This document shows, in pieces, positions 13,894 to 52,351 of a stretch of 53,216 bases of DNA (position 1 is its first letter; every line of letters starts with the position of its first letter). The stretch lies in assembly GCA_034440135.1 (NCBI GenBank), contig JAWXBP010000235.1, positions 1 to 53,216 on the forward strand, read 5' to 3'. Position numbers and translations under genes: made by a program. The notes beneath the pieces are model-generated. The model was not told the DNA's origin. It saw nothing but the letters and a program-made list of their open reading frames with translations, and did no database searches. The DNA comes from Planctomycetia bacterium. Lineage in GTDB: Bacteria > Planctomycetota > Planctomycetia > Pirellulales > JALHLM01.

Positions 13894-13894
13894 C

Positions 13895-30010: not shown

Positions 30011-30024
30011 GTCGCGATTGTCCA

Positions 30025-33070: not shown

Positions 33071-33195
33071 TTGAACCGCGGAGGCGGCTGGGAGTTTGAA
33101 GTTTTCAGTGTTCAGTTTTCAGTGGGTCGAGGAGCGCCTTCACTGAAAACTGAACACTGAAAACTTCAAACTCGCCCGCGTCTCCGCGGATCAAT
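33071..33195. repeat. 33-bp perfect inverted repeat, GTTTTCAGTGTTCAG family
   Basis: Arms 33092-33124 and 33141-33173 are exact reverse complements over 33 bp, with core GTTTTCAGTGTTCAGTTTTC and a 16-nt loop. Outer flanks add CCGCGGAG (33076-33083) opposite CTCCGCGG (33181-33188). The element fills the gap between ligA and the convergent foldase gene. Confidence 0.9.
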
Positions 33196-33199
33196 TGAA

Positions 33200-35182
33200 T
33201 TACCTTCTCGGCGGCGCCGGTTTCTTCGCCGCCGGGGCGTATTCGGTCTGTTGGATCGCCGCTGGGTTTTTCGCTGAGCTCTTGGCCGTTTGCTTCGGCA
33301 GGTGCGTTTCGCCCGTTAGTTCGTTGACAATGCGGGCGTTTTCTTGGAGCCGATCGAACTCCGTGGCCATGGCGAGGCGGAGTTTCTTCTCGTAGAGATC
33401 GGCGTAGATGTCGTTCCGCACCGTGGCAAAGTCCGGCACGCTCGGTTGCGTGAGGCCTTGGTAGTAGAGAATCACGAACTGGTCGCCGACCTGGATGATC
33501 CCGGACATGGGATCGGCGTCGTTGAGCGCGAAGGCTTCCTTCTCCAACAACGGTTCGCCGCCATGCTTCTGGATCGGCGGGATTTCGCCGCGCAGCACCC
33601 GCGTCGAGGCGTCCGTCGAATACTGCTCGGCCAGGTCGCCGAAGAATTTCTCGTTGAGGTTCTTGCGCGCCTTGTCCCACACTTCCTGGGCGCGGCGTTG
33701 GTTGTCCATCACGATCGCCAGGCAGCGGACGCGCGGGCCGTAGTTCGCGTCGAAGCCTTTTTGCAGGTCCGCTTCCGTGACTTCGACCCCTTGGCCGACG
33801 AGCTTTTTGAGCATCACGCTCGGCACGACCGAATCGTTCTTGTAAACCTCGACGGGCACACTGTTGTTCTCGGTCACTTCGACCAACCAGGCGCTGATGT
33901 CCGGCCGGCCTTGCGCGTCGAGCTTGCCCATCAGCGTGGCGGCGTGCGCGATTTCCTGATCGACGTCCGCCGGCGTAATCGCAATCTTCTTCTGACGGCA
34001 GGCCTGATCGAGCAACCGGCGGCTGATCATGGCGTCGAGCATTTCCGGACCATGCCGCTTAACGCATTCGGCGGCCATGTCTCGCGTCAGGAGCTGCTGC
34101 CCATTGACGATGGCGGCCACCTCCGGCTGCGCGGCGCGCTTGTCGGGATCGTTGAAGATCAACTCGACCTGCGATTGTTCCTGCAGCTTGGCGAACACAT
34201 CGTCGGCCACCAGACGCAGCTTCTTGTCGCGAATGGCTTCCACCAACACCTGTTGAATCTTGCCTTCCAGCTTTACATCGCGGGCTGGCAGGTGTTTTTC
34301 GCACTTCAGAAACACGTACTGATCGGCGACCTGGAGAATGTCGGAAATCGCGCCCGGCTGGAGGCTGAACGCGGCGGCTTCGATCTTCTTGTCGCCCAAG
34401 TGCTTGCGAATCGGCTGAATCAATCCCTTGGCGCTCGCGCTGTTCGGATCGACGGAGTGTTGCTTGGCGAGATTCGGAAAATCGTCCGGCTTGGCCAAGG
34501 CTTGCTCGCGAATCTTCTGGGCGTTCTCCAGCGAGTCGCAAGCAATCAGCCGGCATTGCACCGCCGGACCGTACTGCGTTTCGTAGGCATCGCGAACTTC
34601 CTGCGGCGTGACGTTGAGTTGTGACGTCGCCAGCTTACGCAGCGCGATCGTCGGCCAGATGATGTCTTTGGCGTACTGGTCCGGGCTGATATGCCGTTCG
34701 GTTTCGAGCAGTTCCAACCACTTATCAGTCGGCACGCCGAATCGCTCGGCCATACGATCGATCTCAGTCTTCACTTCCTGCTCCGTGACCACGACGTTGC
34801 GCTTTTTGCACTCCGACGTGATCAGGAATTTGTTGACCATGGTTTCCAGCACGTCGCTGCCGTAATGGCGGAGGCATTCGGCCGCGAGGTCCGCTTGCTT
34901 GATTTGTTCGCCATTCACGGTCGCCATGACGTCCTTTGCCGGGACGGCCACCGGAGTCTTCGCCGGAGCGGGCGTGGTCGCCGCCGGCGTGCGCGGCGCG
35001 GCGGTGACTTTCGCACGCGGCACTGGCGGCGCGGTTTGCTGCGCTTGCGCGGAATCCGGTCCCCAGCCGAAGCGGGTATAGAGCGCCAAGGCGGCGATCG
35101 CGGCCACGCCGCAGAAGATGCTGAAGCACCGTGCCCAAAAGGCAGTGCGCGAGGCGTTCGACGGCGAATCCGTTCGCGTCAT
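33200..35182 (-). CDS. periplasmic parvulin-type foldase with tandem duplication
   Basis: The start is the ATG at 35182, with AAGGAG 11 nt upstream. One N-terminal membrane segment (FWARCFSIFCGVAAIAALALY) is followed by an Ala/Pro/Thr-rich linker. Two homologous units then occur, at about residues 85-350 and 360-620. Each opens with a SurA_N-like helical part (ATVNGEQIKQADLAAECLRHYG / AIVNGQQLLTRDMAAECVKRHG), continues with a linker of the type Y.......VVVTEQEV / IAITPADV, and ends in a parvulin-like segment. The tail is Pro/Lys-rich. The protein would act on outer proteins as a prolyl isomerase or chaperone. Catalytic residues of the parvulin parts are not clearly intact, so a chaperone role is possible. 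Confidence 0.87.
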   Translation of the reverse strand: MTRTDSPSNASRTAFWARCFSIFCGVAAIAALALYTRFGWGPDSAQAQQTAPPVPRAKVTAAPRTPAATTPAPAKTPVAVPAKDVMATVNGEQIKQADLAAECLRHYGSDVLETMVNKFLITSECKKRNVVVTEQEVKTEIDRMAERFGVPTDKWLELLETERHISPDQYAKDIIWPTIALRKLATSQLNVTPQEVRDAYETQYGPAVQCRLIACDSLENAQKIREQALAKPDDFPNLAKQHSVDPNSASAKGLIQPIRKHLGDKKIEAAAFSLQPGAISDILQVADQYVFLKCEKHLPARDVKLEGKIQQVLVEAIRDKKLRLVADDVFAKLQEQSQVELIFNDPDKRAAQPEVAAIVNGQQLLTRDMAAECVKRHGPEMLDAMISRRLLDQACRQKKIAITPADVDQEIAHAATLMGKLDAQGRPDISAWLVEVTENNSVPVEVYKNDSVVPSVMLKKLVGQGVEVTEADLQKGFDANYGPRVRCLAIVMDNQRRAQEVWDKARKNLNEKFFGDLAEQYSTDASTRVLRGEIPPIQKHGGEPLLEKEAFALNDADPMSGIIQVGDQFVILYYQGLTQPSVPDFATVRNDIYADLYEKKLRLAMATEFDRLQENARIVNELTGETHLPKQTAKSSAKNPAAIQQTEYAPAAKKPAPPRR

Positions 35183-35378
35183 GGCGGGTAGCTCCTTAAA
35201 TCCGGAATCCAGGCAATCTGGTGGGTCCGCGTAGCCGCGACATCGGTCGCCGCGGGAGAAATTCGGGCGGCAATATAAGAAGGCCACGATTTAGGGTCAA
35301 GATCGGCCGCGCGGCTGCCGACGGCGTTGCGATTTGAGAATTGCCCGCGAAACACGCGAAACACACGAAAAGGAGGAG

Positions 35379-35396
35379 GCTGGGAGTTTGAAAATC
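35379..35396. repeat. partial arm of the GTTTTCAGTGTTCAG repeat family
   Basis: GGCTGGGAGTTTGAAAATCG resembles the flank and first bases of the arm at 33085-33100 (GGCTGGGAGTTTGAAG) and then diverges. It lies in the 270-bp gap upstream of the gene at 35452, which otherwise holds only short CGCGAAACAC-type repeats. Confidence 0.45.
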
Positions 35397-35451
35397 GTTT
35401 GCCCGGCGACTTCCGGGGCGTTACGGTGTTCTGAATGGCAGGATCACGAAC

Positions 35452-36018
35452 ATGGAGCGCATGCAGATGAAACGATCACGAATGGCCTTGCCGCTATTGG
35501 GTTTCGCCTTCCTCGCAGTTGGCGCCGGATTCTATGGCGGTGAGAAAACGAAAGCGCCTGTGCCAGTAGCGAGTGTGAATGTCCAATCGTTGGGGCGGCA
35601 AATCGAAGTCGTCGGTGATTTGGGCGAGCCGTTGGAGAAGTTGCTAACATTGCGCGGCGAAATGGTTGCCGCAGACAACTTTGCACATCTTCGAAAGAGC
35701 AAAGTCGTTCCCGATCCAGGGCTTTACGTGCGCGTCCGACATGTCAATGCGCGTCAGCTTGAGGAGCCGGTTGTAATTGAGCTGAGGCACAATTGGCACC
35801 AGGGAAAAAAGCCGAAACCTGGTACGCGCCTTGAATTGATTGGCTATGCGAAGCTGGCTTACGTCGGAGATTCGCCAATAGAGAAGCAATGGGCCGGCGA
35901 TCCGCGCAATCGGCATGATGTACCAGAGCCACCGGAGGTTGCGAGGCACGTATTTGAAGGGCATTACGAAGATCAATTTGTCGTCCTCCAATTCGACGAA
36001 CTGCCAGCGGGCGAGTAG
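35452..36018 (+). CDS. hypothetical protein with N-terminal membrane anchor or signal
   Basis: I do not recognise the family. Of 188 residues, about 11-26 (MALPLLGFAFLAVGAG) form a hydrophobic anchor or signal. The rest is a soluble, beta-rich domain: VNVQSLGRQIEVVGDLGEPLEKLLTLRGEMV, GLYVRVRHVNARQLEEPVVIELRHNW, and a charged end with YEDQFVVLQFDELPAG. Starts at 35452, 35461 or 35467 are all possible. The DNA is slightly richer in A/T than its neighbours. It lies 150 bp upstream of ispE on the same strand but with its own gap, so it is probably separate. Confidence 0.7.
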   Translation: MERMQMKRSRMALPLLGFAFLAVGAGFYGGEKTKAPVPVASVNVQSLGRQIEVVGDLGEPLEKLLTLRGEMVAADNFAHLRKSKVVPDPGLYVRVRHVNARQLEEPVVIELRHNWHQGKKPKPGTRLELIGYAKLAYVGDSPIEKQWAGDPRNRHDVPEPPEVARHVFEGHYEDQFVVLQFDELPAGE

Positions 36019-36168
36019 TCGATGGCGTCAATTTCGCTGATTCGCTAGCGCCCCTAACCGATCCAGGTTGACCGATCCGTTTTGGATTCATAGAATTCGT
36101 CGGTTGCGTGGCGAGTTTTAACTTGTCAAGCCCGGTCCGCCGGGAGTTGATTAGGGGGCGGGCAGGGC

Positions 36169-37074
36169 ATGGACGTTCAACGCACGCCGTCGGCCGTTGT
36201 GGTGCGCACACCGGCGAAGTTGAACTTGTTTCTCGAGGTGTTGGGCCAGCGAACAGACGGTTTTCATGAGCTGGAAACGCTCATGACGCCGGTAAATCTA
36301 TACGACCTCCTGTGGTTCGCCCCGGCGGATTCAGGCGACATTGAACTGACGTGTGAACGGTTTCCGAGCGTGGAGCGATCCGGCGAGGAGGCCAGCAGGT
36401 TGCCGGAGGGATCCGACAATCTCGTAGTGCGGGCGGTGCGTTTGCTAGCCGAACGGGCCGGCATACGGGCCAGCGCCCGGATGAAGCTTTGGAAGCGCAT
36501 CCCGGTGGCGGCCGGTCTGGCGGGTGGTTCGAGCGACGCGGCGGCGGCTTTGGTGGCCGCCAACGCGGGCTGGCGACTCGATTGGCCGCGGGAGCAATTG
36601 CTGCCGCTGGCGGCCGAGTTGGGCAGCGACGTCCCGTTTTTTCTAGGTCGGGGTCCAGCCGTTTGCCGCGGACGCGGCGAGCGGATTGAACCTGCGAGCG
36701 GCCTGGGCATCCTGCACTTCGTGGTCGTTGCTCCGCCGGTGGGACTCAGTACCGCCGCGGTTTTTCGTGCTTGCCGCCCGGCGGAACATCCCCAACCTCT
36801 GGCTCCCCTCTTGGAAGCTCTGCGCACGGGGGATGCTGCGACTGCCGGAGAACGCCTGTTTAATCGGCTGGAACCGGCCGCCGCTGAATTAACACCTTGG
36901 ATTGAACGATTGCGTCGGGAGTTCGCCGACGGCGAATTCGTCGGACATCGGATGAGCGGCAGCGGCTCGAGTTACTTCGGGCTCTGCCGCAACCTCGGAC
37001 ATGCTCAAAGGGCCGCGAGCAGGTTACGAGGTCGAGGAGTCGGTCAGGTGTACGCTGTGCGTACCGCCTGCTGA
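36169..37074 (+). CDS. ispE: 4-diphosphocytidyl-2-C-methyl-D-erythritol kinase IspE
   Basis: A 301-residue GHMP kinase. PAKLNLFLEVLGQRTDGFHELETLM holds the catalytic lysine (K17) and the substrate-binding His-Glu. The ATP loop is PVAAGLAGGSSDAAAAL (111-127), with D123 the likely acid/base. MSGSGSSYFG near residue 262 is the third GHMP motif. It phosphorylates CDP-methylerythritol in the MEP isoprenoid pathway. The SpoVG-domain gene follows 27 bp downstream with its own ribosome site, a pairing seen in several Gram-positive and planctomycete genomes. All residues needed for activity are present. Confidence 0.96.
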   Translation: MDVQRTPSAVVVRTPAKLNLFLEVLGQRTDGFHELETLMTPVNLYDLLWFAPADSGDIELTCERFPSVERSGEEASRLPEGSDNLVVRAVRLLAERAGIRASARMKLWKRIPVAAGLAGGSSDAAAALVAANAGWRLDWPREQLLPLAAELGSDVPFFLGRGPAVCRGRGERIEPASGLGILHFVVVAPPVGLSTAAVFRACRPAEHPQPLAPLLEALRTGDAATAGERLFNRLEPAAAELTPWIERLRREFADGEFVGHRMSGSGSSYFGLCRNLGHAQRAASRLRGRGVGQVYAVRTAC

Positions 37075-37101
37075 GTCGCCACGATTGAAGGGAGAACAGC
37101 C

Positions 37102-37752
37102 GTGGATGTGACAGAAGTGCGCATCAAGCTCATGGAAGAACCCGGGGAGCGGCTCCAAGCGTTTTGTTCGATCACTTTCGACAATTGCTTCGTGATCCGG
37201 GATCTCAAGATCATCGAAGGGACCAACGGTCCTTTCGTGGCGATGCCCAGCCGCAAGCTGACATCGCACTGCCCGACGTGCGGCTGCAAGAATCACTTGC
37301 GCGCCGGCTATTGCAACCAGTGCGGCGTGAAGCTCAAAGAAGATCGCGCCATCAAGGACGAGGAAGGCCGGGCGAAGCTCTATGCCGACATCGCCCATCC
37401 GATCAACTCGCAGTGCCGCGAGATGATTCAGGACTACGTGATCAAGGCCTTCCAGGAAGAGGTCGAACGCTCCAAGCAGCCGGGGTACGTCTCGAGCTAC
37501 GACGACTTCGACGACTACGACTATGCGCCGCGGACGCAAACCCGCGAGCCGGCGCATCGACCGCCGACCAGCGCCCCGCATTTCGATCGCAAGCCCACGC
37601 ACACCTCGGGGCACGGCGGCGGGCGCGGCCCGCATCGGCCAGCGGCGGCGCAGCATCATCCCCAGCCGCAACCTGTGGCGCCACCGCCAGCGCCGGCTTC
37701 ACCACCGCCGCGTGGCGAGAGCAACAACGGCTTCGGGGCGGGGGTGTTTTAG
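37102..37752 (+). CDS. spoVG: SpoVG-domain protein with zinc ribbon and disordered tail
   Basis: The GTG start at 37102 has GAGAAC/AGGGAG-type bases upstream. Residues 1-60 and 90-115 form the SpoVG core ([59 protein letters not shown]). Between them lies an inserted four-cysteine ribbon ([19 protein letters not shown], residues 57-75), not present in Bacillus SpoVG. The last 90 residues are Pro/His/Gly-rich and disordered. SpoVG is an RNA/DNA-binding regulator in Firmicutes and Borrelia. The ribbon may add a nucleic-acid contact. It is co-transcribed with ispE, as in Bacillus, where spoVG lies in the same region. Confidence 0.87.
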
Positions 37753-37794
37753 TAAGTTCGCCCTGCCGCGAACGGCTTAGCTTCACCGTGAAGC

Positions 37795-37985
37795 GTAGGG
37801 CGGGCCGCGCGTGCGTTAAGTGATGCGACGTGATACGCGCAGCGCAATGACAATTGTCTTAAAGTTCAAATCGTAAGGCCCGCCGCACATGCAACGGCGG
37901 GCCTTACTCGTCGCATGAACCGGCCGCAATCGTTTCCCGCGGTCATTGGAATCACTCGCTGGACGTTCTGCGCGGCCCGCCCTAC
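37795..37985. repeat. 16-bp inverted repeat GTAGGGCGGGCC around a hairpin
   Basis: GTAGGGCGGGCCGCGC (37795-37810) and GCGCGGCCCGCCCTAC (37970-37985) are perfect reverse complements. Inside, GTAAGGCCCGCCG and CGGCGGGCCTTAC (37873-37885 and 37895-37907) form a separate perfect 13-bp stem. A similar combination (GTAGGGCGGGCCGTGCG and a GGCCCGCCG hairpin) occurs at 50199-50311. Confidence 0.8.
37873..37907 (+). terminator. 13-bp stem hairpin, likely terminator
   Basis: GTAAGGCCCGCCG pairs perfectly with CGGCGGGCCTTAC across a 9-nt loop, 120 bp after the SpoVG stop. There is no T run, so it may be part of the repeat and not a classic terminator. Confidence 0.4.
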
Positions 37986-38062
37986 GGCCTCGAATGGCCA
38001 TCGGCGCCTGAACCGCTTCCTACATTTCTTGCCGACGCTTTCCTTGGCAGGGGAAGCAGGGC

Positions 38063-38068
38063 TATAAT
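38063..38068 (+). promoter_or_regulatory. -10 box of esterase gene
   Basis: A perfect TATAAT, 66 bp before the ATG at 38134. The -35 position (TTTCCT, 18 bp upstream) is weak. Confidence 0.45.
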
Positions 38069-38133
38069 CGGCGGCCTGGCTTGTCGAAAACCTTTTGCGC
38101 GCTCTGCTCGCGGCCTTACCTTGGAGATGCAAC

Positions 38134-38862
38134 ATGCGGCGGATTCTGTGGATGGCGGTCTGGATGGGCTCTGTGGTGCTGCTGGCGCCGGCGGTTCGCG
38201 CCGACGAGCCCGCGGCGGGAAAGCAGACGCCCGCGGAGTTCACTCAGGAGATTATGGTGAAATACCAGTTATTCCTGCCGAAGGACTACGCGGACTCGGA
38301 CAAGAAATTCCCGCTGATGTTGTTCCTGCATGGTGCAGGCGAATCGGGCAATGATTTGGAAATCGTGAAGAAGCATGGACCGCCGAAGCTCGTCGACGGC
38401 AAGCCTGACTTTCCGTTCATCGTCGTTTCGCCCCAGTGCGCGGTGCGACCCTGGCGGGTTGACCAGTTGAATGCGCTACTCGACGACATCATCGCCAAGT
38501 ATCGCGTCGACACCGATCGCGTGTATCTCACCGGGCTCAGCATGGGTGGCTACGGCACCTGGGCCCTGGCGGCGGAGCACCCTGAGCGGTTCGCGGCGAT
38601 CGTGCCGATTTGCGGCGGCGGCAATCCCGCCACGGCGTCCAAGTTGAAGGACATTCCGATCTGGGTCTTCCATGGCGCGAAGGACGACGCCGTGCCGTTG
38701 TCCCGCTCCGAGGAAATGGTCGCCGCACTCAAAGCCGCGGGCAGCGAGCCGAAGTTCACGATCTACCCGGACGCCGGGCACGACTCGTGGACGGAGACGT
38801 ACAACAACGAAGATTTGTATAAGTGGCTGCTGGAGCAGTCGCTGGCGAATCGCAAGAAGTAG
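38134..38862 (+). CDS. secreted alpha/beta hydrolase (esterase/peptidase-like)
   Basis: The start is the ATG at 38134, opening a signal peptide (MRRILWMAVWMGSVVLLAPAVRA). The 242-residue protein has the LpqC/polyhydroxybutyrate-depolymerase-like hydrolase pattern: QLFLPKDYADSDKKFPLMLFLHGAGESGND holds the oxyanion region, GLSMGGYGTWALA the nucleophile Ser, GAKDDAVPLSRSEEMV the Asp, and YPDAGHDSWTETY the catalytic His. The full catalytic triad is present. Such single-domain exported esterases act on small esters or side groups of polysaccharides. A candidate promoter precedes it and a terminator follows, so it is a single-gene unit. Confidence 0.9.
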   Translation: MRRILWMAVWMGSVVLLAPAVRADEPAAGKQTPAEFTQEIMVKYQLFLPKDYADSDKKFPLMLFLHGAGESGNDLEIVKKHGPPKLVDGKPDFPFIVVSPQCAVRPWRVDQLNALLDDIIAKYRVDTDRVYLTGLSMGGYGTWALAAEHPERFAAIVPICGGGNPATASKLKDIPIWVFHGAKDDAVPLSRSEEMVAALKAAGSEPKFTIYPDAGHDSWTETYNNEDLYKWLLEQSLANRKK

Positions 38863-38877
38863 CCCGCGCGGAGGGAG

Positions 38878-38902
38878 AAGGCCGGAAATCGCCGGCCTTT
38901 TT
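38878..38902 (+). terminator. Rho-independent terminator after esterase gene
   Basis: AAGGCCGG-AAATCG-CCGGCCTT (38878-38899) is a perfect 8-bp stem followed by TTT. It lies 16 bp after the esterase stop. Confidence 0.8.
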
Positions 38903-39005
38903 CCCGGCAAATTGTTGCACCGCGACTTGGTGCGCAGGATAATGGCGGCGCGGCGTTCCATGGGGACGTCGCGCCGTCTCACTTTTCCGGATGCGCATTC
39001 GCGCC

Positions 39006-39848
39006 ATGAACACTATGATTCGCACCACATTGATCGCTTCGTTCGTGTTCGCACTCCTGATCACGCCGCCGGCATCGGCGGCCTTGATCGCCTACGAGCC
39101 ATTTGACGATGCGCCGGTGGGGAGTGACGTGCAGGGCAAGGCCGGCGGCCTGGGCTTTAGCGGCGGATGGCGCGCCGGTGGCTTTAACGCGTCGATCAGC
39201 AATAATTTCGATATCGCCAACGGGTCGCCGACGTTCGGCAATCTTTTGCGCGAGGGCAATTCCGTCAGCACGCCTGCCGTGGGCGCGATTTCCGGGATCA
39301 CGCGCGACCTCGCCAGCCCGCTGGGCCAAGCGGACTCTACGGTTTACCTGAGCTTTCTGATCCAGCCGCAGGGCGCCTTGCACGGCGGCGCATTCAACGG
39401 CTTCATGGGGCTGACCTTGGAAAGCGCGGGCGAGCCGGAGTTGTACGTCGGCAAGCCAGGCGGCGGTGCGATCGATCGCTGGGCGTTGGAAGATCGCGGC
39501 GGCAGCCGGCAACATGCATCGAGCGTCTTGACGCAATCGGGGTCCACGGCACTCTTGGTCGTCAAGGCGGAGCTGTTCGCCAGCCCGAACATCAATGATA
39601 AGTTCACGCTGTATGTGAATCCCACACCGGGGGAAGCGGAGCCAGCTTCCGGCATCGTCAAGCAAGACGCTGCTTTCGGCGTCGTGCAAGGCATGACTTT
39701 GTATTCGTCTGGCGCGATGCAATTCGACGAATTGCGCATCGGACAGACCTTCGCGGACGTCACGCCGGTTCCGGAGCCTGGCAGCTTTGGATTGTTGACG
39801 GTCGGTTTCGCGGCCTTCGCGGCGGCCATCTGGCGCCGTCGGAAGTAA
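39006..39848 (+). CDS. PEP-CTERM secreted protein
   Basis: The start is taken at the ATG at 39006 (MNTMIRTTLIASFVFALLITPPASA), a good signal peptide; an ATG at 38991 adds five residues. The 280-residue product has a jelly-roll-like beta-rich body: AYEPFDDAPVGSDVQGKAGGLGFSGGWRAGG is typical of planctomycete PEP-CTERM proteins. The tail is VPEPGSFGLLTVGFAAFAAAIWRRRK, i.e. PEP motif, hydrophobic helix and Arg/Lys cluster recognised by an exosortase. It is probably an exported surface or matrix protein. No exosortase gene is in the window. Together with the pentapeptide protein it shows that the host carries PEP-CTERM sorting. Confidence 0.9.
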   Translation: MNTMIRTTLIASFVFALLITPPASAALIAYEPFDDAPVGSDVQGKAGGLGFSGGWRAGGFNASISNNFDIANGSPTFGNLLREGNSVSTPAVGAISGITRDLASPLGQADSTVYLSFLIQPQGALHGGAFNGFMGLTLESAGEPELYVGKPGGGAIDRWALEDRGGSRQHASSVLTQSGSTALLVVKAELFASPNINDKFTLYVNPTPGEAEPASGIVKQDAAFGVVQGMTLYSSGAMQFDELRIGQTFADVTPVPEPGSFGLLTVGFAAFAAAIWRRRK

Positions 39849-39859
39849 GCGGCGAGAAT

Positions 39860-40657: not shown

Positions 40658-40767
40658 GATCTGAGACGCCTGACGCCGGGAAATCGAAGCGAGGATACCG
40701 GCCGGCAGTGTTTCAGATCGATACGCCGTTCGCAAGTGGCGGCCATGGACCGCCGCAGCACGAACTC

Positions 40768-42759: not shown

Positions 42760-42880
42760 ACAAGTGCAACGTCCCGGGGTCGCCGGGCAACGCTGACCTC
42801 GTCCGTGTATCCAGTAGCGCTGCACCCGTCGTTGAGTTAGTACACCGCCGCCATTCGCCCGCGGCGACGAGGCGCGCACT

Positions 42881-43228: not shown

Positions 43229-43271
43229 CCACGTTTCCTCGCCTTCGATAGCGTTCGTGGCGAAGGTTTTA

Positions 43272-44105: not shown

Positions 44106-44503
44106 AGCAAAATGCGTGTAGGTGAAACGACCGAACGCCGCCCCAGGCGTCCGCCGCGCACGGCCTCAACGGGGCCACTCTCTATTGTAGCATGGCGGGG
44201 GCGTTCCGGGAATTGGCATATGTCCTTACGCAGCCATCACTTGAGCGAAGTGGCCCAGCTTGGAGTGGAGCCGGAAGCGTCACCGCCCGGAGTGAATTGG
44301 TAACGACGGCATGTTTGGACTCGCTCCAGACGCTGGCGTTTTTGGCGCTATTTGATGTAGCAACGTTTAGAAGTTAGCTGCTTCGGCGCTGTTTAACGCA
44401 CTGGACCTTGGTGGCGGATTTGGATACCTTCCCGCCCTCTTCACTTCACCGCCCGAGGGGGTGGCGGTGAAGGTGCGCAGCTCAAGTGCATGCGGAGCCA
44501 AGG
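44106..44503. other. 398-bp divergent spacer between PP2C and flhA
   Basis: No ORF that I would call a gene. The left end contains the candidate -10 box (minus-strand TACAAT, 44184-44189) of the phosphatase gene. The right end should hold the flhA promoter; no clear sigma-28 or sigma-54 site was found by eye. Confidence 0.4.
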
Positions 44504-46600
44504 ATGGCGACGGTCGCAGCGCCAAACGTCGGGGCGATAAGCCCTTACGCTCGTTGGCGGGAACTGGTGTTGCCGGTCGGGATGATTGCCAGCGTGCTGG
44601 TGATCATGCTGCCGCTGCCACCTGCGCTGCTGGACATCCTGCTGGCGGCCAATATCAGCGTCGCCGTGATGATGCTGCTGACGACGATCTACGTCCGCAC
44701 GCCGCTGGAATTCAATATCTTCCCGTCGTTATTGCTGGCCACCACGCTTGCCCGGCTGGTGCTGAACGTGGCCACGACGCGCTTGATTCTGACCCACGCC
44801 GACTCCCTTGGCCTGAATGCCGCGGGCGAAGTGGTCCATGCCTTCGGCGAGTTCGTGGCCGGCGACCGGATCGTGGTCGGCATTATTCTGTTCATCATTA
44901 TCGTGGTGATCCAGTTCGTGGTGATCACCAAAGGCGCCACGCGGATCAGCGAAGTGGCGGCCCGGTTCTCCTTGGACGGCATGCCTGGCCGGCAGATGGC
45001 GATCGACGCCGATCTGAACGCCGGCATCATCGACGAAAAAGAAGCCCAACGTCGCCGGGCCGAAATCACCGCCCAGGCGGATTTCTTCGGGGCCATGGAC
45101 GGTGCCAGCAAGTTCGTCCGCGGCGACGCCATCGCCGGCATCATCATTACGCTGGTGAACATTGTCGGCGGTTTGATTATCGGCGTCCTGCAAGGCGGCA
45201 TGGAACTGGCCGAGGCCGGCTCGGTGTACACCAAACTGACGATCGGCGATGGTCTGGTCTCCCAGGTGCCGGCGTTTCTGATCTCGCTAGCGGCCGGCTT
45301 GCTCGTCACCCGCAGTAATACCGAAGTGAACTTGCCCGCCGAGTTCATGCAGCAGTTGTTCTCGCGACCGCAAGCGTTGGCGGTGACCGGCGGCTTTCTG
45401 ATCATGTTGATCTTCACCAACTTGCCGGCGATTCCACTGTTCACGATGGCTGGCGGCTGCCTCGCGATGGCCTACACGATGACCCGCAAGAAGCGCGAGG
45501 TCGAAACGCAGGCCAAGCAAGCCAAGGCCGCGGACGTGAAGCCGCCGCAGGAGCGGATCGAAGACTACCTGCTCATTGACCCGATGGAAATGGAAATCGG
45601 CGTCGGCTTGATCCGCCTGGCCGACCCCAAGCGCGGCGGCGATCTACTGGAACGCATTCAGGGCGTCCGCCAGCAGATGGCGGGCGAGATTGGCATCATC
45701 ATTCCGAAGGTAAGGATTCGCGATAACTTCCGGCTGGAACAGAATCAGTATCGCGTGAAGATCGCCGATTTGCCGGTCGCGCAGGGCGTGGTTTATCCCG
45801 GCATGTTGATGGCGATCGATTCCGGCATGACGGCCGGCAAGTTGAACGGCATCCCGACGACCGACCCGGCATTCGGCACTCCCGCGGTCTGGATCGACGC
45901 CGGAGCGCGTGAGCAAGCGGAGTTGCTGGGATACACCGTCGTGGAACCGGTCACCGTGCTGGCGACGCATCTCACCGAAGTCGTGCGCCGCAATGCCGAC
46001 GAATTGCTCACGCGCGATGCGGCGAAGCATCTCATCGCGCAGCTCAAAGAAACCTCGCCGGCCGTGGTCGAAGAATTGATCCCCAGCCAAATGAAGCTGG
46101 CCGAGGTGCAAACGATCCTGCAAATGCTGTTGCGCGAGCAGGTTTCGATCCGGCAGTTGAGCTCGATCCTGGAAACGCTCGGCGATCATTGCTCGCGGTC
46201 GAAAGACCCAGTGCTGCTTACAGAGTACGTCCGCAACCGGCTCGCCCGAGCGATCTGCACGCGGCTCCGCGACAAAGAGAATCGCCTGTTCGTCGTGTCG
46301 CTCGACCCAACGCTCGAGGACCGGATTCGCGCGGGTATCGAACACAGCGAGCGCGGCATGTTCATCCGCATGTCGCCTCAAGCCGTCGAACACACCTGCC
46401 AGCGGATCTCGGCGGAAGTAGACAAGCTTACGCGGATTGGCAAACCGCCGGTGGTGCTGGTGAGCCCGCAGATTCGGGCCGGCCTGAAGCAATTGACGTC
46501 GCCAAACATCCCGCAACTCGCTGTGTTGAGCTACGCGGAAGTGACGCGCGACACGGTGATTGAGTCGTTGGGGATGGTGACGGAGGGAGTGGGGAAATGA
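44504..46600 (+). CDS. flhA: flagellar export apparatus protein FlhA
   Basis: The start is the ATG at 44504 with GGAG 6 nt upstream; a GTG at 44486 adds six residues. The 698-residue protein has seven to eight membrane segments in residues about 25-320, with the FHIPEP-type stretch TRLILTHADSLGLNAAGEVVHAFGEFVAGD. The conserved cytoplasmic loop is KGATRISEVAARFSLDGMPGRQMAIDADLNAGIIDEKEAQRRR. The cytoplasmic C-domain shows LIDPMEMEIGVGLIRL, GEIGIIIPKVRIRDN and the late export-chaperone-binding part. It is the export gate component that binds substrate chaperones. Its stop codon falls within an AATGACGAA-type repeat. It heads the flhA-flhF-flhG-fliA cluster. Confidence 0.97.
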   Translation: MATVAAPNVGAISPYARWRELVLPVGMIASVLVIMLPLPPALLDILLAANISVAVMMLLTTIYVRTPLEFNIFPSLLLATTLARLVLNVATTRLILTHADSLGLNAAGEVVHAFGEFVAGDRIVVGIILFIIIVVIQFVVITKGATRISEVAARFSLDGMPGRQMAIDADLNAGIIDEKEAQRRRAEITAQADFFGAMDGASKFVRGDAIAGIIITLVNIVGGLIIGVLQGGMELAEAGSVYTKLTIGDGLVSQVPAFLISLAAGLLVTRSNTEVNLPAEFMQQLFSRPQALAVTGGFLIMLIFTNLPAIPLFTMAGGCLAMAYTMTRKKREVETQAKQAKAADVKPPQERIEDYLLIDPMEMEIGVGLIRLADPKRGGDLLERIQGVRQQMAGEIGIIIPKVRIRDNFRLEQNQYRVKIADLPVAQGVVYPGMLMAIDSGMTAGKLNGIPTTDPAFGTPAVWIDAGAREQAELLGYTVVEPVTVLATHLTEVVRRNADELLTRDAAKHLIAQLKETSPAVVEELIPSQMKLAEVQTILQMLLREQVSIRQLSSILETLGDHCSRSKDPVLLTEYVRNRLARAICTRLRDKENRLFVVSLDPTLEDRIRAGIEHSERGMFIRMSPQAVEHTCQRISAEVDKLTRIGKPPVVLVSPQIRAGLKQLTSPNIPQLAVLSYAEVTRDTVIESLGMVTEGVGK

Positions 46601-46750
46601 CGAATTTCTAAATCTGAATGACGAATCAAATCCGAATGATTAAATGCTTGAAGGTCCTATAGAAAGAGAAGCGTTCTCAACAATACGTCCCTTCGACATT
46701 CAGTCATTCAAATTTGATTCGTTATTCGGATTTAGAAATTCGACATTCAC
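46596..46750. repeat. AATGACGAA-family inverted repeat overlapping flhA stop
   Basis: Left arm AATGACGAATTTCTAAATCT... (46596-46646) pairs with a right arm at 46698-46748 over about 51 bp with about seven mismatches; the loop is about 50 bp. The TGA at 46598-46600, inside the first unit, is the flhA stop codon. Similar units occur at 11211 and 13814. Confidence 0.8.
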
Positions 46751-46788
46751 AAACGCACGCAGTCGCTCGCACAACGGAAGCTATCGCC

Positions 46789-47955
46789 ATGGAACTACGA
46801 ACCTATCGCGCCTCGTCCATGCAAGAGGCGCTGGCGCTGGTGCGGCAGGACTTGGGGCCGGAGGCCGCGGTGGTACACACGCGCGAGCTGGGCGCCGAGG
46901 GCTGGCGGCGCTTCGTGCGCGGGTCGCGGCGGATTGAGGTCACGGCGTCGCGCGAAGTGAATGTGCCGAGCCGGTTGGCGCCCAAAGAAACCGCAGCGCC
47001 GAAGCTCGCCGCGCCGAGCGTAACGTCGCCGTTCGATTACGGGCCGGAGCACGCGGTGCAGTTCCGCCAGGAGATGAAGGGGCAGCTCGACGGGTTGCAG
47101 CAGATGGTGGAAACGCTGTGCAAACGGTCGCGCGTGGGCGAACGGCGTGAGTTGCCCGAGGCGTTCTTTCGACTCTACGCCGAATTGCTCGACGCCGATC
47201 TGAGCGATGACGAAGCCCGGGACCTCGTCGAACGCATTCAACAAGAGTTGCCCGGCGCAAATGAGGCGGCCTACGAGAGCGTACGCCTCCGGGCGCAACA
47301 ATCGGTCGAGAGCCAGATTCGCATCGCCGGGCCGATCATGACGCACTCGGGCCGCCGCCGACTGGTGGCGCTCGTAGGTCCGACCGGTGTCGGGAAAACA
47401 ACGACGATCGCCAAACTGGCCGCGAACTTCCGTCTCCGGGAGAAACGCCGTGTGGGGTTGATTACCGTCGACACGTACCGCATCGCGGCCGTCGAACAGT
47501 TGCGCACCTACGCCGACATCATCGACCTGCCGATGGAAGTGGTCAGCACGCCGCGCGAGATGCGCGAGGCCGTCGCCAAGATGAGTCAACTCGATTTGAT
47601 CCTGCTCGACACCGCGGGCAGAAGTCCCAAAGACGAAGTGCAAATTCAGGAGTTGCGGGCGTTCCTCACCGAAGCGCAGGCGGACGAAGTGCACCTCGTG
47701 ATGAGCAGCGTGTGCAGTTCTTCCACGCTGTTGAAAACGGCCGAGCGTTTCGGCGAAGTCGGCGCGACGTCGCTGCTGATCACAAAATTGGACGAAGCCA
47801 GCAGCTTCGGCAGCCTGTGGCCGTTGCTGCGCTCCTGCCCGCTTCCGCTCAGCTACCTGACCGACGGCCAAAACGTCCCAGACGACATCCAACCCGCCGA
47901 CCGCCGCCGCCTAGCGCGGTTAGTGCTCGGGCAGATGGATGAGGCGATGGTGTAG
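46789..47955 (+). CDS. flhF: flagellar SRP-type GTPase FlhF
   Basis: The start is the ATG at 46789 (MELRTYRASSMQEALALVRQDLGPEA), the normal FlhF beginning. The 388-residue protein has a basic/variable N-domain, then an NG domain with GPTGVGKTTT (197-206), DTYRIAAVEQLRTYADI, LDTAGRSPKD, TKLDEASSFGSL and a late GQNVPDDIQP. It sets the number and site of polar flagella with FlhG. A 150-bp repeat lies between it and flhA, and a 200-bp repeat region between it and flhG, so either the three are one transcript reading through repeats or they have separate promoters. Confidence 0.97.
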   Translation: MELRTYRASSMQEALALVRQDLGPEAAVVHTRELGAEGWRRFVRGSRRIEVTASREVNVPSRLAPKETAAPKLAAPSVTSPFDYGPEHAVQFRQEMKGQLDGLQQMVETLCKRSRVGERRELPEAFFRLYAELLDADLSDDEARDLVERIQQELPGANEAAYESVRLRAQQSVESQIRIAGPIMTHSGRRRLVALVGPTGVGKTTTIAKLAANFRLREKRRVGLITVDTYRIAAVEQLRTYADIIDLPMEVVSTPREMREAVAKMSQLDLILLDTAGRSPKDEVQIQELRAFLTEAQADEVHLVMSSVCSSSTLLKTAERFGEVGATSLLITKLDEASSFGSLWPLLRSCPLPLSYLTDGQNVPDDIQPADRRRLARLVLGQMDEAMV

Positions 47956-47957
47956 CG

Positions 47958-48137
47958 GAGGATTCACCACGGAGACACGGAGGCACGGAGAGGGGGAAGA
48001 GGGGTGAAGCATTTTGAAACGCGGAGGGGGAGAGTGTGATGAGTTTTAGAGTGACGATGGCTGCCCAATGCTGAAAACTGAACACTGAAAACTTCAATCT
48101 CCCACTCCTCCTCTCCGTGTCTCCGTGGTGAATCCTC
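47958..48137. repeat. 25-bp inverted repeat CACGGAGACACGGAG with an embedded repeat arm
   Basis: GAGGATTCACCACGGAGACA continuing CGGAG (47958-47982) and its exact reverse complement (48113-48137) enclose 130 bp. Inside, 48071-48094 carries a single arm of the GTTTTCAGTGTTCAG family (CTGAAAACTGAACACTGAAA). The element fills the flhF-flhG gap and carries no gene. Confidence 0.85.
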
Positions 48138-48159
48138 GGAACCAAACGTCTGAACTCCA

Positions 48160-48891
48160 ATGCAACCCGATCAAGCGACACGACTGCGATTGTTGGTGAG
48201 TGACGAGGCCTCGGATGAGGTCGTCGCTCAGCCGCGCGCATCACGTACTTTGTCGGTCGTGGGCGCTAAGGGGGGCGTGGGCACGAGCACCGTGGCGTTG
48301 AACTTGGCCGTCGCGCTGAGCATCTCTGGTTGCCGTGTCGAGTTGGCGACCGCGAGTGACCTAGTGGGCGAGGCGACGGCGTTGACGCGCGGTCCCGCGG
48401 GCGTTGTCTTGCTGGGCGAAGAAGGTTGGCGAAGGTCATTGCTGTGGCAGCCGAGTTTGAGCCATTCAAAACAATTCATACCGGCGGCGAGCGAACTGGC
48501 GGACTGGTTGATCGTCGATCGAGGCACGGCGCCCTCCGCGAACGACGCCGAGTCGATGCTGCTGGTGAGCACGCCGGAACCTGCGTCGATCCTGGCGGCG
48601 TTCGAAGCCTTGCGTTCGGCTCACGCCAGCGGGATCGCAGCGGAGCTACTAGTCAATCGCGCCGGCACGCTGGCGGAGACGGAGCGGATCCGAGTGCGGC
48701 TTACCGAGGCTTCGCGGCGACTGCTGGGCTGTTGTCCGAACGTCTATGAGCTTCCAGAAGACATCGCTGTATTGGATGCGGCGCGATTGGGTCGGCCCGT
48801 GGCGTTAGCTCGCCCGGCTTGCCCGTTTTCGCGCGGCGTGCAACGGCTCGTCGATGTTTGGTCGTCGGCGCGCTCCGAGCGGGCCGCCTAA
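48160..48891 (+). CDS. flhG: FlhG/MinD-like ATPase with altered P-loop
   Basis: A 243-residue ParA/MinD-family protein. The phosphate loop reads GAKGGVGTST (35-44): the signature lysine is kept (K37) but the usual second lysine is Thr, as in CpaE/TadZ-like members. The Walker B region ADWLIVDRGTAPSAND keeps the Asp. The C-terminal part (GIAAELLVNRAG, PEDIAVLDAARLGRPVALARP) fits MinD-type ATPases. Its place after flhF and before fliA argues for FlhG, which controls flagellar number and placement. The altered loop may mean weak or no ATP hydrolysis. No C-terminal amphipathic membrane helix is obvious. Confidence 0.85.
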   Translation: MQPDQATRLRLLVSDEASDEVVAQPRASRTLSVVGAKGGVGTSTVALNLAVALSISGCRVELATASDLVGEATALTRGPAGVVLLGEEGWRRSLLWQPSLSHSKQFIPAASELADWLIVDRGTAPSANDAESMLLVSTPEPASILAAFEALRSAHASGIAAELLVNRAGTLAETERIRVRLTEASRRLLGCCPNVYELPEDIAVLDAARLGRPVALARPACPFSRGVQRLVDVWSSARSERAA

Positions 48892-49017
48892 CAAAAAACT
48901 CACACGGTTTCGCGAACGATTCAAGATCCCAACCTGAAAGACCGATTGTATGAGGGCCGTTGACTACGCCATGTACTGTCAAGATTTTCCGGTTAGCGAA
49001 GCCGTGAGGCGCGTGCG

Positions 49018-49278
49018 GTGGCAAGAACGTACGCCGGAATCCTCGGTTCGCTGGCCATGGCGGTCGCGTTGGTCCGCGGCATCATGTCGGGCGGTGGAGC
49101 GGAAGAAACCGTCGTGCATGCCTTGGCGGCGATGATTGGTTTCGGCCTGCTCGGTCTCGCGATCGGCGGCATCGCAGGTTGGATCGTGGAAGACGCGGTT
49201 TACGCACAAGTTCAGCAGGAAGTCACGGCGCACGAGGCGCAGAAGAACACCAGGTCCGACAATCCCACGACGCGCTGA
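49018..49278 (+). CDS. small membrane protein of flagellar cluster
   Basis: A GTG start at 49018, 86 residues. Two hydrophobic segments are visible: YAGILGSLAMAVALVRGIMSG (about 5-25) and VVHALAAMIGFGLLGLAIGGIAGWIV (about 32-57), followed by a charged cytoplasmic or periplasmic tail. No family is recognised. It lies between flhG and fliA on the same strand (gaps of 126 and 77 bp) and is probably expressed with them. Small membrane proteins occur at this place in other planctomycete flagellar clusters, as far as I recall. Confidence 0.7.
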   Translation: MARTYAGILGSLAMAVALVRGIMSGGGAEETVVHALAAMIGFGLLGLAIGGIAGWIVEDAVYAQVQQEVTAHEAQKNTRSDNPTTR

Positions 49279-49355
49279 CGCGCCGACGGCCCCTGGCCGC
49301 GGGCGTACCAAGGATGGCTTGAGCGCGATCGTATCCAGCAGTCACGGAGGAATGC

Positions 49356-50138
49356 ATGGCAACCACACTAGCGCCTGAAGACGTCTCGCAACTCTGGGAT
49401 GCCTATAAGCTCGATATGAACAATCAGGAGCTGCGCAATCGGCTCGTCGAGCAATACCTTCCCCTGGTGAAATACAACGGCGAGCGCATCTGGGCGCGGT
49501 TGCCCGAGGGCGTCGAGTTGGACGACCTGATCTCGGCCGGCATCTTCGGTCTGATGGACGCGATCGACGCGTTCGACCTGACGCGCGGCGTCAAGTTCGA
49601 GACCTACTGCGTACCGCGCATTCGCGGGGCCATGCTCGACGAACTTCGCACCATGGACTGGGTGCCACGCCTCGTGCGCTCCAAGGCCAGCAAGCTCAAC
49701 GAGGCGGTGAAAACCCTCGAGACTCGGCTCGGCCGGCAGCCGTCGCACGCGGAGGTGGCCGAACAGATGACCATCACGGTGCCCGAGTTGGAAAAGATGG
49801 TGCTCGACGCCAACGCGGTGAACCTGATCAGCCTGAACAAGAAGTGGTACGAGACCGACAGCTACAAAGACGTCCGCGAGATTGATATTCTCGAAGACAA
49901 AAAGGGCGAGGATCCCACGAAGCGGATCCAGAAGAACGACCTGATGCGGCTTGTCACCAAGGGACTCAATCGCAATGAGCGGCTGATCATCATCCTTTAC
50001 TACTACGAAGAGCTGACGATGAAGGAGATCGGCGCCACGCTGGATCTCTCCGAAAGCCGCGTCAGCCAGATGCACAGCTCCATCGTCCAACGCCTGCAAA
50101 GCCAGCTGGGCCGCCGACGTCCGGAGTTTGGGACGTAG
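49356..50138 (+). CDS. fliA: flagellar sigma factor FliA (sigma-28)
   Basis: A 260-residue sigma factor with an excellent ribosome site (GGAGGAATGC) before the ATG. Region 2 is VKYNGERIWARLPEGVELDDLISAGIFGLMDAIDAFDLTRGVKFETYCVPRIRGAMLDELR, region 3 is TLETRLGRQPSHAEVAEQM and region 4 is NRNERLIIILYYYEELTMKEIGATLDLSESRVSQMHSSIVQRLQ. These match FliA/WhiG. It directs late flagellar genes in other bacteria. No FlgM-type anti-sigma gene is in the window. The stop is followed by a repeat and a strong hairpin. Confidence 0.97.
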   Translation: MATTLAPEDVSQLWDAYKLDMNNQELRNRLVEQYLPLVKYNGERIWARLPEGVELDDLISAGIFGLMDAIDAFDLTRGVKFETYCVPRIRGAMLDELRTMDWVPRLVRSKASKLNEAVKTLETRLGRQPSHAEVAEQMTITVPELEKMVLDANAVNLISLNKKWYETDSYKDVREIDILEDKKGEDPTKRIQKNDLMRLVTKGLNRNERLIIILYYYEELTMKEIGATLDLSESRVSQMHSSIVQRLQSQLGRRRPEFGT

Positions 50139-50146
50139 GACCTTGA

Positions 50147-50420
50147 GAGTTTGAAGTTTTCAGTGTTCAGTTTTCAGTTCATTGAGCGCAATCGAACTGT
50201 AGGGCGGGCCGTGCGAGATTTGGGCCGTCGATTCTTGCGACACCCATCACAACGCTGATCACCGCTACCAGAAACAAAGCGAGGCCCGCCGTGCATCACG
50301 GCGGGCCTCGCTGTTTGGTGTGGTTGCGTTACCGGAGTGCGTCGTCAACTCATCCGCGAAGTCATCGAGTAGTGCGCCGGCCCGGCCTACTGAAAACTGA
50401 ACACTGAAAACTTCAAACTC
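50147..50420. repeat. 32-bp perfect inverted repeat enclosing GTAGGGCGGGCC and a hairpin
   Basis: Arms 50147-50178 and 50389-50420 are exact reverse complements over 32 bp (GTTTTCAGTGTTCAG family), enclosing 210 bp. Inside are GTAGGGCGGGCCGTGCG (50199-50215) and a perfect 15-bp hairpin at 50279-50311. It looks like one repeat family inserted into, or wrapped around, another. It fills the gap between fliA and the anti-sigma gene. Confidence 0.88.
50279..50311. terminator. 15-bp perfect hairpin between convergent genes
   Basis: GCGAGGCCCGCCGTG pairs exactly with CACGGCGGGCCTCGC across a 3-nt loop, followed by TGTTTGG. It lies between fliA and the convergent anti-sigma gene and may terminate either. 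Confidence 0.55.
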
Positions 50421-50421
50421 C

Positions 50422-51504
50422 TTACTTCGCCAACTCATTCATCTCCATCAGTTGTGGCAACGAGTTGGATGAATCGGCGTTGCGATGCGGGACGCGAACC
50501 TTGGTGTTCACCGGGACCCGTAAGTAGATGCGGAAGAGATGAATCTTCTGCACGGGACGGGCCCAACTGGGGGCCACGACGGCATCGTTCACATGCTGTC
50601 CGGCGCCAATGATGCCCAAGTCGTTGTGATAGATGTCGTCTTTGCAGCCAGCGGCGGTGCAGGTGCGCTGAAACTGCACATGGCCGTCCTCGTACAGGAC
50701 GTTCTGCCCGCGGCCTTCGTGATTCGCGCTCACATCGCCGCTATCCTGAGGGCTGGACGAATCGGCCACCAAGGCAAAGCGGGCGCGCCCCTGATTCTTG
50801 TTGCCCAAGTAACGGCCGTCCTTCTCATAGCCCAGGGCATAGCCGTAGCTGCCTCCCATGCTGCGTTGCAGTTCCAAGAGCGGCGCGCCTTCGGCCTTAC
50901 CGATGCTCGCCATAGTGACAGGCGCCTGATCGGCCGCCGCTTGCGGCGACGAGGGGCAAAGCAAGGATCGCGAATTCTCGAGGTAGCGACCGTCGGTCAG
51001 CGTCGGACCGAAGATGCCGGCCGCGGCGTAGTTCCCTTCGGTCGGCACGTACGGGAAGTACCCGCCATGCTGTTGGCTGTATTGCCAGAGGCCGTTGCTG
51101 ACCTGACGGAGGTTTTCGCTACAGTAAGCCACCTGCTGATCGAAGCGACTTTTCATTACCGAGGGGAAAAACAACATTGAAGCCACAAACAACACCGAGG
51201 CTGCCACGGCAAGGTCGAGCCATCGCCAGGTTGTCCGCTGCTCCCCGTATTCGACCTGTACGGCCGGCGCATTCGCTTGCCGCTCGATGAACTGGCAGCA
51301 ACGTTCCGCCAAACCCAGCGGCGGAGCGGAATGTTCTGCATCCGAGCGGAGCGGCGTCAACGCGCGCCGTAAGACTTGCACCGAACGCTGCAACTGCGGG
51401 TCGGACGCCAGTCGCGACTCCAGCGCCTCGCGCTCGTCGCTCTCCAGGGCGTCCAACAGGTAGCCCAGCAACTCGATTTCGGTGTCAGGTTGTTTAGCGT
51501 TCAT
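50422..51504 (-). CDS. anti-sigma factor with membrane segment and DUF1559-like tail
   Basis: The start is the ATG at 51504, which overlaps the stop of the upstream sigma-factor gene by 11 bp. The 360-residue protein has an N-terminal cytoplasmic part of anti-sigma type (EIELLGYLLDALESDEREALESRLASDPQLQRSV), one membrane segment (WLDLAVAASVLFVASMLFFPSVM, about 108-130), and an outer domain with CSENLRQVSNGLWQYSQQHGGYFPYVP and NVLYEDGHVQFQRT, the H-x9-DG-like end of the DUF1559 pseudopilin-type family. The outside domain may sense an envelope signal. Release of the sigma factor would need proteolysis or conformational change, both inferred. Confidence 0.85.
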   Translation of the reverse strand: MNAKQPDTEIELLGYLLDALESDEREALESRLASDPQLQRSVQVLRRALTPLRSDAEHSAPPLGLAERCCQFIERQANAPAVQVEYGEQRTTWRWLDLAVAASVLFVASMLFFPSVMKSRFDQQVAYCSENLRQVSNGLWQYSQQHGGYFPYVPTEGNYAAAGIFGPTLTDGRYLENSRSLLCPSSPQAAADQAPVTMASIGKAEGAPLLELQRSMGGSYGYALGYEKDGRYLGNKNQGRARFALVADSSSPQDSGDVSANHEGRGQNVLYEDGHVQFQRTCTAAGCKDDIYHNDLGIIGAGQHVNDAVVAPSWARPVQKIHLFRIYLRVPVNTKVRVPHRNADSSNSLPQLMEMNELAK

Positions 51505-52225
51505 GGCGGCTGTGTTCGGAGTTGTTCCACGCTTCATTGAGACGCAACATCGCCGTATGCAGGCGGCTCTTCACGGTTCCAACCGGCACTTTCAAGATTT
51601 CCGCGGCTTCGCGGTATTTCAGTCCTTGGTGGTAGATCAAATTCACGGCCACTTGCAGCGTCTCCGGCAGCTTGGCCACGGCATCGCGGGCCCAATCGCG
51701 CCGCTCCACCGCTTCCAGGTTGTCGTCCGGCGACGGGTCCCGGGCTTCCAGCAGGTCCAGCAAAGCCCCCGGTTCGCTTTCGCCGTCTTCGCCGTGACGC
51801 CGGTCGAGGCTGACCAGCTTGTGTCGCTTGTTTCGTCGTTGGCAGTCGATGGCCTGGTGCGTGGCGATGGTGTACAACCACGGGCGCACCTTGCGTTCGG
51901 ACTCGAACTGCTGGCATTTCAGATGGACTTGCAGGAAGGTCGCCTGAAAGACATCTTCGGCCAGGGTCGCGTCTCCAAGGTAGCGTTGCAGGTAGCTGTA
52001 CAGCTCGCGCTCGTACCGTTTCACCAGTTCGTTAAACGCCCGCCGATCCGCCTGGGCGCGGTATTTCAGCAGCAACTCTTCGTCCGAGAGTTCGGCCAGG
52101 GGAGGGGCGGCGTTGGGGGAGCTGGGAGGGCTAATCGAACTGCACTCTCTCTGATACGCATGGCGGGGTGAGGAGTTCACCGAGCGGCCAAGAAAATCCG
52201 TTGTCTGTCCGCGTAAGGCTACCAT
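51494..52225 (-). CDS. ECF-type RNA polymerase sigma factor
   Basis: A 243-residue protein. The first 45 residues are Ser/Pro-rich and may start later. Region 2 is DEELLLKYRAQADRRAFNELVKRYERELYSYLQRYLGDATLAEDVFQATFLQVHLK followed by VRPWLYTIATHQAIDCQRRNKR. Region 4 is AVAKLPETLQVAVNLIYHQGLKYREAAEILKVPVGTVKSRLHTAMLRL. It belongs to the RpoE-like ECF group common in Planctomycetes. The anti-sigma gene overlaps its 3' end by 11 bp, so the two are translationally coupled. Targets are unknown. Confidence 0.92.
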   Translation of the reverse strand: MVALRGQTTDFLGRSVNSSPRHAYQRECSSISPPSSPNAAPPLAELSDEELLLKYRAQADRRAFNELVKRYERELYSYLQRYLGDATLAEDVFQATFLQVHLKCQQFESERKVRPWLYTIATHQAIDCQRRNKRHKLVSLDRRHGEDGESEPGALLDLLEARDPSPDDNLEAVERRDWARDAVAKLPETLQVAVNLIYHQGLKYREAAEILKVPVGTVKSRLHTAMLRLNEAWNNSEHSRHER

Positions 52226-52266
52226 GTTTCACCGTATCCGAGTGGGGTGAGGAGCAATTGCTGGAG

Positions 52267-52351
52267 GAGTTTGAAGTTTTCAGTGTTCAGTTTTCAGTGA
52301 GGACAGCGCGGCCCCGATCGCTGAAAACTGAACACTGAAAACTTCAAACTC
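52267..52351. repeat. 31-bp inverted repeat, GTTTTCAGTGTTCAG family
   Basis: Arms 52267-52297 and 52321-52351 are reverse complements over 31 bp with a 23-nt loop. It lies in the divergent gap between the sigma-factor gene and the permease gene, unlike the other copies, which are after genes. Confidence 0.88.

Follow-up and report, generated by a model that had tools for sequence, protein, structure and literature searches.

Dispersed heptad-armed hairpins in a planctomycete genome as probable gene-less copies of a small mobile element with a four-helix-bundle (IVP) gene

Main finding

A family of nearly identical, heptad-based arms, here called arm A, recurs in the window, i.e. the whole stretch of 53,216 nucleotides of Planctomycetia bacterium that was analysed, and generates strong hairpins. 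These hairpins are very probably gene-less copies of a mobile element composed of an arm, a gene of the IVP family and the same arm in inverted orientation. They would be stripped-down copies of a little-noticed bacterial mobile element, featuring the gene of a ring-forming four-helix protein instead of a transposase. A role of IVP as the mobilising factor is slightly favoured. The reading as a whole, in which arm A makes up the ends of a small IVP mobile element, the hairpins of the window are its gene-less copies and IVP guides their copying, is considered likely.

The repeats in the window

Seven full A arms, reported in Table 1, sit where a first-pass annotation of the window had placed them, and are near-identical in sequence. 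When a 15-mer is searched with up to 2 mismatches, 14 matches are found in the window, two registers for each arm, against 0.06 expected; none of 100 shuffled sequences reached 14. At three loci the arms are paired, as already described, with 97–100% complementarity and spacers of 16, 210 and 17–23 nt. On RNA folding, the paired loci reach z-scores of -12.6, -10.8 and -9.2, and the locus at 48071 one of -6.5. At 48071 the hairpin is made by the outer arms of another family (C), where 47958-47983 pairs with 48112-48137, and not by the lone A arm. Inside the family C hairpin, a different heptad run (about 48030-48059) accompanies this arm, which is also found, as a single arm, in the orthologous gap of a sister species.

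Table 1. Arms of family A, with the enclosing, adjoining or intervening repeats, in window coordinates
Feature	Position	Strand	Remarks
nested hairpin	33071-33194	.	outer octad-type arms 33071-33086 / 33178-33194 enclose the A hairpin; between the stop codons of convergent genes
arm A, left	33092-33124	+	heptads CAGTTTT/CAGTGTT
arm A, right	33141-33173	-	pairs with 33092-33124
family E single arm (GxxExxY-type), then outer 11 nt of arm A	35355-35392	+	probable remnant
family C outer hairpin (GxxExxY-type octads)	47958-48137	.	arms 47958-47997 / 48098-48137
arm A, single	48071-48101	-	
arm A, left	50147-50178	+	begins 8 nt past the stop codon of a sigma-factor-like gene
spacer between the arms at 50147 and 50389	50179-50388	.	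210 nt; carries another repeat, GTAGGGCGGGCC type
arm A, right	50389-50420	-	end adjoins the stop codon of the convergent gene
arm A, left	52267-52300	+	
arm A, right	52318-52351	-	

Two loci turned out to be more composite than annotated at first. At 33071-33194 the A pair is present as noted, enclosed by outer arms of a different family, which had gone unmentioned; in the orthologous gap of the sister species the same outer octad family surrounds an inner hairpin of type E (CACGCGAAA-type), and no A is found. The partial arm located near 35379 does exist: it consists of the outer 11 nt only (GGGAGTTTGAA, 35382-35392), and adjoins a family E arm (35355-35370). The long spacer of the third pair also contains a terminator-like palindrome, at about 50279-50312. 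An insert resembling this spacer fills an A hairpin at another locus (L064), for which the version of the sister species is compact.

Arm A across the genome and in a sister species

The core arm, GGGGAGTTTGAAGTTTTCAGTGTTCAGTTTTCAGTGAGGA, is structured as CAGTTTT-CAGTGTT-CAGTTTT: taken alone it is a heptad repeat, not a palindrome. In the window's own genome (G000) a 22-mer searched with up to 2 mismatches gives 178 matches (94 on one strand, 84 on the other, some in overlapping registers), while the reversed 22-mer, used as a control, gives 0. The sister species (G001), a Pirellulales MAG of the same genus (JALHLM01), contains 144 matches with up to 1 mismatch. These genome-wide and sister-species copies remove the possibility, considered in the first-pass annotation, of an artefact, with arms absent elsewhere or present only at assembly joins. 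The localization "always between genes" holds for 81 of the 82 arms found in 784 kb of G000.

The typical copy is a pair, with about 21 nt between the two 22-mers. The 124 arms in the fetched regions include 36 pairs within 420 bp, and 52 unpaired arms. Tandem periodicity, evaluated for periods 4 to 15 in 784 kb of G000 chosen around A arms, peaks at 7 (23 stretches, against 1 in shuffled DNA). Gaps of similar kind hold other heptad families (GAGTGAT, GAATGAC, GTAGGTGGAGTAG) and octad-like ones (CACGGAGG, CGCGGAGGCGCTGAGA, CACGCGAAA), sometimes nested. At two loci (L095, 2902-3011; L100, 2048-2183) A arms and GTAGGTGGAGTAG-type heptads are mixed in one hairpin.

The idea that A always inserts into the tip of another hairpin was tried and rejected: the outer flanks of 35 A pairs are no more complementary than re-paired flanks (at a score of at least 12, 2 of 35, against 2.7% expected), individual nested cases being nonetheless clear. 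Comparison with Rfam gave six matches at E<0.1, none of which reached the gathering score; five concerned models of long microRNA hairpins and the sixth a Thr leader. All were taken as chance.

A gene between the arms

No IVP gene is found within the window. All loci with A arms were examined in a profile search, where genes lying between or beside the arms were collected. In the sister species and in others, the gene between the arms belongs to the 23S_rRNA_IVP family (PF05635/TIGR02436), a four-helix bundle. The complete element consists of arm A, the IVP (S23p) gene and inverted arm A, for a total of about 400 bp: it is found in G329, in a Kuenenia MAG (L333) and in G001, where it spans 12607-13011 of L089 and its gene 12654-13007. 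IVP genes with at least one A arm are found in Nitrospira (L302), G389 and G374. In most A-armed copies the IVP reading frame ends within the right-arm sequence. The protein from the sister species is a TIGR02436 member, with a weak match to the Avd model (22 bits; cut-off 80), and A-armed IVP matches XCC0516 (PDB 2GSC).

In G000 no PF05635 gene with A arms is found, and the only PF05635 gene lies between inverted GTAGGTGGAGTAG arms. The only GxxExxY (PDDEXK_3, PF13366) gene of this genome (L130, 1381-1925, contig 16) lies between inverted CCGCGAAA-type arms, a family that also makes gene-less nested hairpins elsewhere.

Bracketing was evaluated on loci from 246 Planctomycetota genomes by aligning each left flank with the reverse-complemented right flank and counting scores of at least 16; the same geometry, shifted by 900 bp, served as control. 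Inverted repeats bracket 53 of the 68 IVP loci (0 of 136 shifted controls) and 39 of the 44 GxxExxY loci (0 of 88). The best period of the arm unit is 7 for IVP (35 out of 52) and 8 to 10 for GxxExxY (35 out of 39); arm A therefore falls in the IVP class, while the GxxExxY class takes in both outer hairpins, at 33071 and 47958, and the arm at 35355. Tentatively, the two may be regarded as parallel, previously unrecognised classes of mobile hairpin element that spread in bacterial genomes without a transposase, one pairing heptads with the four-helix ring protein IVP, the other an 8-10-base unit with a PD-(D/E)XK-fold GxxExxY protein, where arm and protein co-evolve by recognition; rRNA intervening sequences would then be a special case, landed in an rRNA hairpin.

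The first-pass annotation had proposed a dispersed family of mobile type that depends on a trans-acting partner. This was right, and the candidate partner is the four-helix-bundle gene bracketed by the same arms. The arms had also been read as binding sites for a DNA- or RNA-acting protein, which remains compatible with the present results, since IVP is a plausible putative binder of the arms. In the proposed mechanism, IVP would bind the heptads when these are present as single-stranded DNA or as RNA, and would direct the copies to new gaps, for the most part on the 3' side of genes. At new sites the arms, like those of rRNA intervening sequences, would be tucked into a hairpin, and strand breakage or copying would be performed by host enzymes or by another activity; to our knowledge, no catalytic site is known for IVP.

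Presence, absence and conservation at single sites

At the site of the complete element of G001, G000 features a nested GxxExxY-type hairpin and no A. One site could be compared in eight species of one genus. A complete element is found in G329, directly past a stop codon, and in G342, where the IVP gene contains a stop and the neighbouring gene's own stop codon lies in the arm. In G304 the element is inverted, and here too a stop interrupts the IVP gene. G312 contains the outer ends only, GTTTGAAGTT...ACTTCAAAC, as a mini hairpin that may be either a deletion product or the pre-existing state; G206 retains a right-arm fragment as a remnant, and G346, G397 and G433 have no A at the site. No target duplication is evident at this site, the boundaries of which have diverged, and no integration product was seen. 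In Nitrospira a second, gene-less A-type hairpin lies, in frame, inside a conserved DNA methyltransferase gene.

Other data bear on a possible host function. Between G000 and G001 the arms are 90.7% identical, against 77.9% for the adjacent noncoding DNA, a better conservation that could reflect a function for the host. Most A loci comparable between the two species are common to both, so that much of the spread is old; the sample, being picked around A arms, favours sharing and is not usable as a rate. Shared loci and better-kept arms can be explained by old copies, homogenised or serving the host, no less than by recent mobility. A arms are rarer between divergent genes than expected (p=0.006), and those within 10 nt of a stop codon are in mild excess (28, against 20.4 expected; p=0.04). 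All these features, along with the strength of the hairpins, would be expected of a regulon, where IVP regulates by binding RNA or DNA and the arms, under host selection, serve as its operators, or stabilise or terminate mRNA 3' ends. Such a regulon is nevertheless unlikely: it does not account for a complete element in G001 when the corresponding gap of G000 contains different hairpins and no A, for presence, absence and inversion among congeners at one site, for the copy within a coding sequence, or for a copy number ranging from 0 to more than 100 within one order.

One IVP clade goes with arm A

The better conservation of the arms and their scarcity between divergent genes count for the mobile-element reading too, which is also supported by the relationship between arms and proteins. 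Six A-armed IVPs share 60-72% identity with each other and 53% at most with 58 other IVPs, and group as a single clade with 84% bootstrap support, against 0 of 500 shuffles. The Nitrospira protein is nested among those from Pirellulales within this clade, as expected from horizontal transfer. In a sample of 296 genomes of the order, 24 contain the A 24-mer and 12 an IVP at 60% identity or above: the A-clade IVP is found in 11 of the 24 A-positive genomes and in 1 of the 272 A-negative ones (Fisher p=9e-13, a value that overstates independence, as the genomes are related). In the single IVP-positive, A-negative genome, G251, the arms resemble A but differ by 3-4 mismatches. Each of the 10 readable A-clade loci has an A-like arm on one side at least, and 7 of them have both arms within 3 mismatches. 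Among 18 IVPs at 55% identity or less, A is found on both sides in none; a CAG-type relative is present in one, and other heptads in most. IVP is under purifying selection, with dN/dS of 0.06-0.17 where synonymous change is unsaturated. Synonymous sites are often saturated, yet the arms stay near-identical.

The A-clade IVP is absent from 13 of the 24 A-bearing genomes, including G000, which has the most arms, and the one-contig G346; loss of the gene after the spread, or another factor, is therefore needed. The exact A 24-mer is also found, often unpaired, in Clostridia, Chloroflexi, Verrucomicrobia, Bacteroidota and Alloalcanivorax. Heptads without paired arms recur in unrelated lineages (Clostridia, Flavobacterium), indicating that slippage or convergence contributes to the arm sequence, and may explain part of the identity across phyla.

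Such unpaired arrays, together with the prevalence of period 7 over other periods in G000 and the mixed arms at 48030-48101, might suggest simple-sequence heptads, spread by slippage, fold-back synthesis and recombination, with the IVP gene as a cargo that profits from fold-back DNA. This is quite improbable, given that the arm sequence tracks the IVP clade, that arm length is fixed at 31-34 nt in G000 and G001, rather than growing into open arrays, and that unit length is specific to the class, IVP or GxxExxY, of the gene.

Comparison with known systems

A relationship of the REP/RAYT type, suggested in the first-pass annotation, is not supported: no Y1 gene is linked to arm A, and IVP genes have the arms instead. 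Five matches to the Y1_Tnp profile are found in G000, and among these five loci no Y1 (HUH) transposase gene is bracketed by arm A. The best one is flanked by a different repeat (GCCCC..GGGGC), the nearest A arm being about 1 kb off, behind another gene; at the other four, no A arm is found. This best gene (L031, 1260-2100, contig 231), RAYT-like and located within its GCCCC..GGGGC repeats, is likely to form a separate REP/RAYT pair. Although A copies, like REP/REPIN elements, are numerous, intergenic, dispersed, paired or single and servable by one gene in trans, and Y1_Tnp genes do exist in G000, movement by a Y1 (RAYT) transposase is hardly credible for arms that are absent from the Y1 loci, are carried by the gene of a four-helix bundle without a known catalytic site, and are arrays of heptads instead of short (20-40 bp) imperfect palindromes with a GTAG-type tag.

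The closest likeness is with the 23S rRNA intervening sequences (IVS), where complementary arms, pairing into a long stem, enclose a gene of the same protein family. IVS with an S23p/IVP ORF are known from Leptospira and Coxiella, and are regarded as selfish and horizontally transferred; in that of Coxiella the terminal inverted repeat measures 28 bp, and GACAGAT heptamers stand in tandem ahead of the ORF (PMC4990558). A role of the ORF in mobility was proposed in 1993, and XCC0516, a relative of IVP, forms pentameric rings (both as cited or reported in PMC4990558). The known copies differ in being located in rRNA helices (9, 25, 45) and cut out by RNase III, whereas the elements described here lie in intergenic gaps, not in a 23S rRNA helix, and comprise many heptad families and large gene-less populations. 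The IVP element may thus be described as a genome-wide relative of the rRNA intervening sequences, the same protein family interrupting rRNA genes in other bacteria.

MITEs of DDE transposons are similarly short and gene-less, with inverted ends and a gene-carrying relative; the A family differs in that no transposase was seen, the gene between the same ends being IVP, and in its variable loop and partly or wholly palindromic element. Avd, from diversity-generating retroelements, belongs to the same four-helix superfamily as IVP.

Heptamer repeats have been described, without a partner gene, in Xanthomonas (GGGAATC, 70-75 inverted pairs) and Nostoc (PMC4692102), and in Beggiatoaceae and Cyanobacteria (TAACTGA; PMC4679880); the main texts of the two papers do not mention S23 or four-helix genes. 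The published repeats resemble arm A in being intergenic, in forming inverted pairs in Xanthomonas and in a patchy distribution that suggests transfer. Some IVP genes carry heptads related to the published ones (L229, L425, cyanobacterial plasmids), and the Xanthomonas, Beggiatoaceae and Cyanobacteria heptamers may be IVP-element arms. A literature search, covering open-licence PMC papers, found no paper linking the repeats to an IVP gene.

On cyanobacterial plasmids, heptad-armed IVP genes are found between nrdB and nrdA, and also inside cas loci; two of them (L445, L446) have cas6 on one side and cas4 on the other. A published list of CRISPR-associated functions includes IVP genes from cas loci (PMC3936711); the reported link may just reflect the insertion of a mobile element.

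Three puzzles may thereby be joined: the rRNA IVS with their ORF, the heptamers of Xanthomonas, Beggiatoaceae and Cyanobacteria, and the occurrence of IVP genes within cas loci. A family of repeats that recurs across many genomes, so far without explanation, would acquire a partner gene and become open to experiment; should IVP bind its own heptads, the way IVS elements move could be studied at the bench.

Other features of the window

A separate intergenic repeat family, CCCTCGCTGGCGCTACGGGCTAGTGT, is found at 10511-10679, 19583-19667 and 29929-30012, partly as inverted pairs; a relative of it sits in the loop of an A hairpin at L079. A heptad-type family, GAATGACGAAT, occurs at 46552-46791 and at 11188-11269 / 13842-13909, as a long imperfect hairpin between two genes. 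The permease-like reading frame at 52390-53216 is broken at 52836 into two overlapping frames, by a sequencing error or as a pseudogene. At the very end of the contig (53036-53216), an 87-nt inverted repeat with a 7-nt spacer is probably a fold-back assembly artefact.
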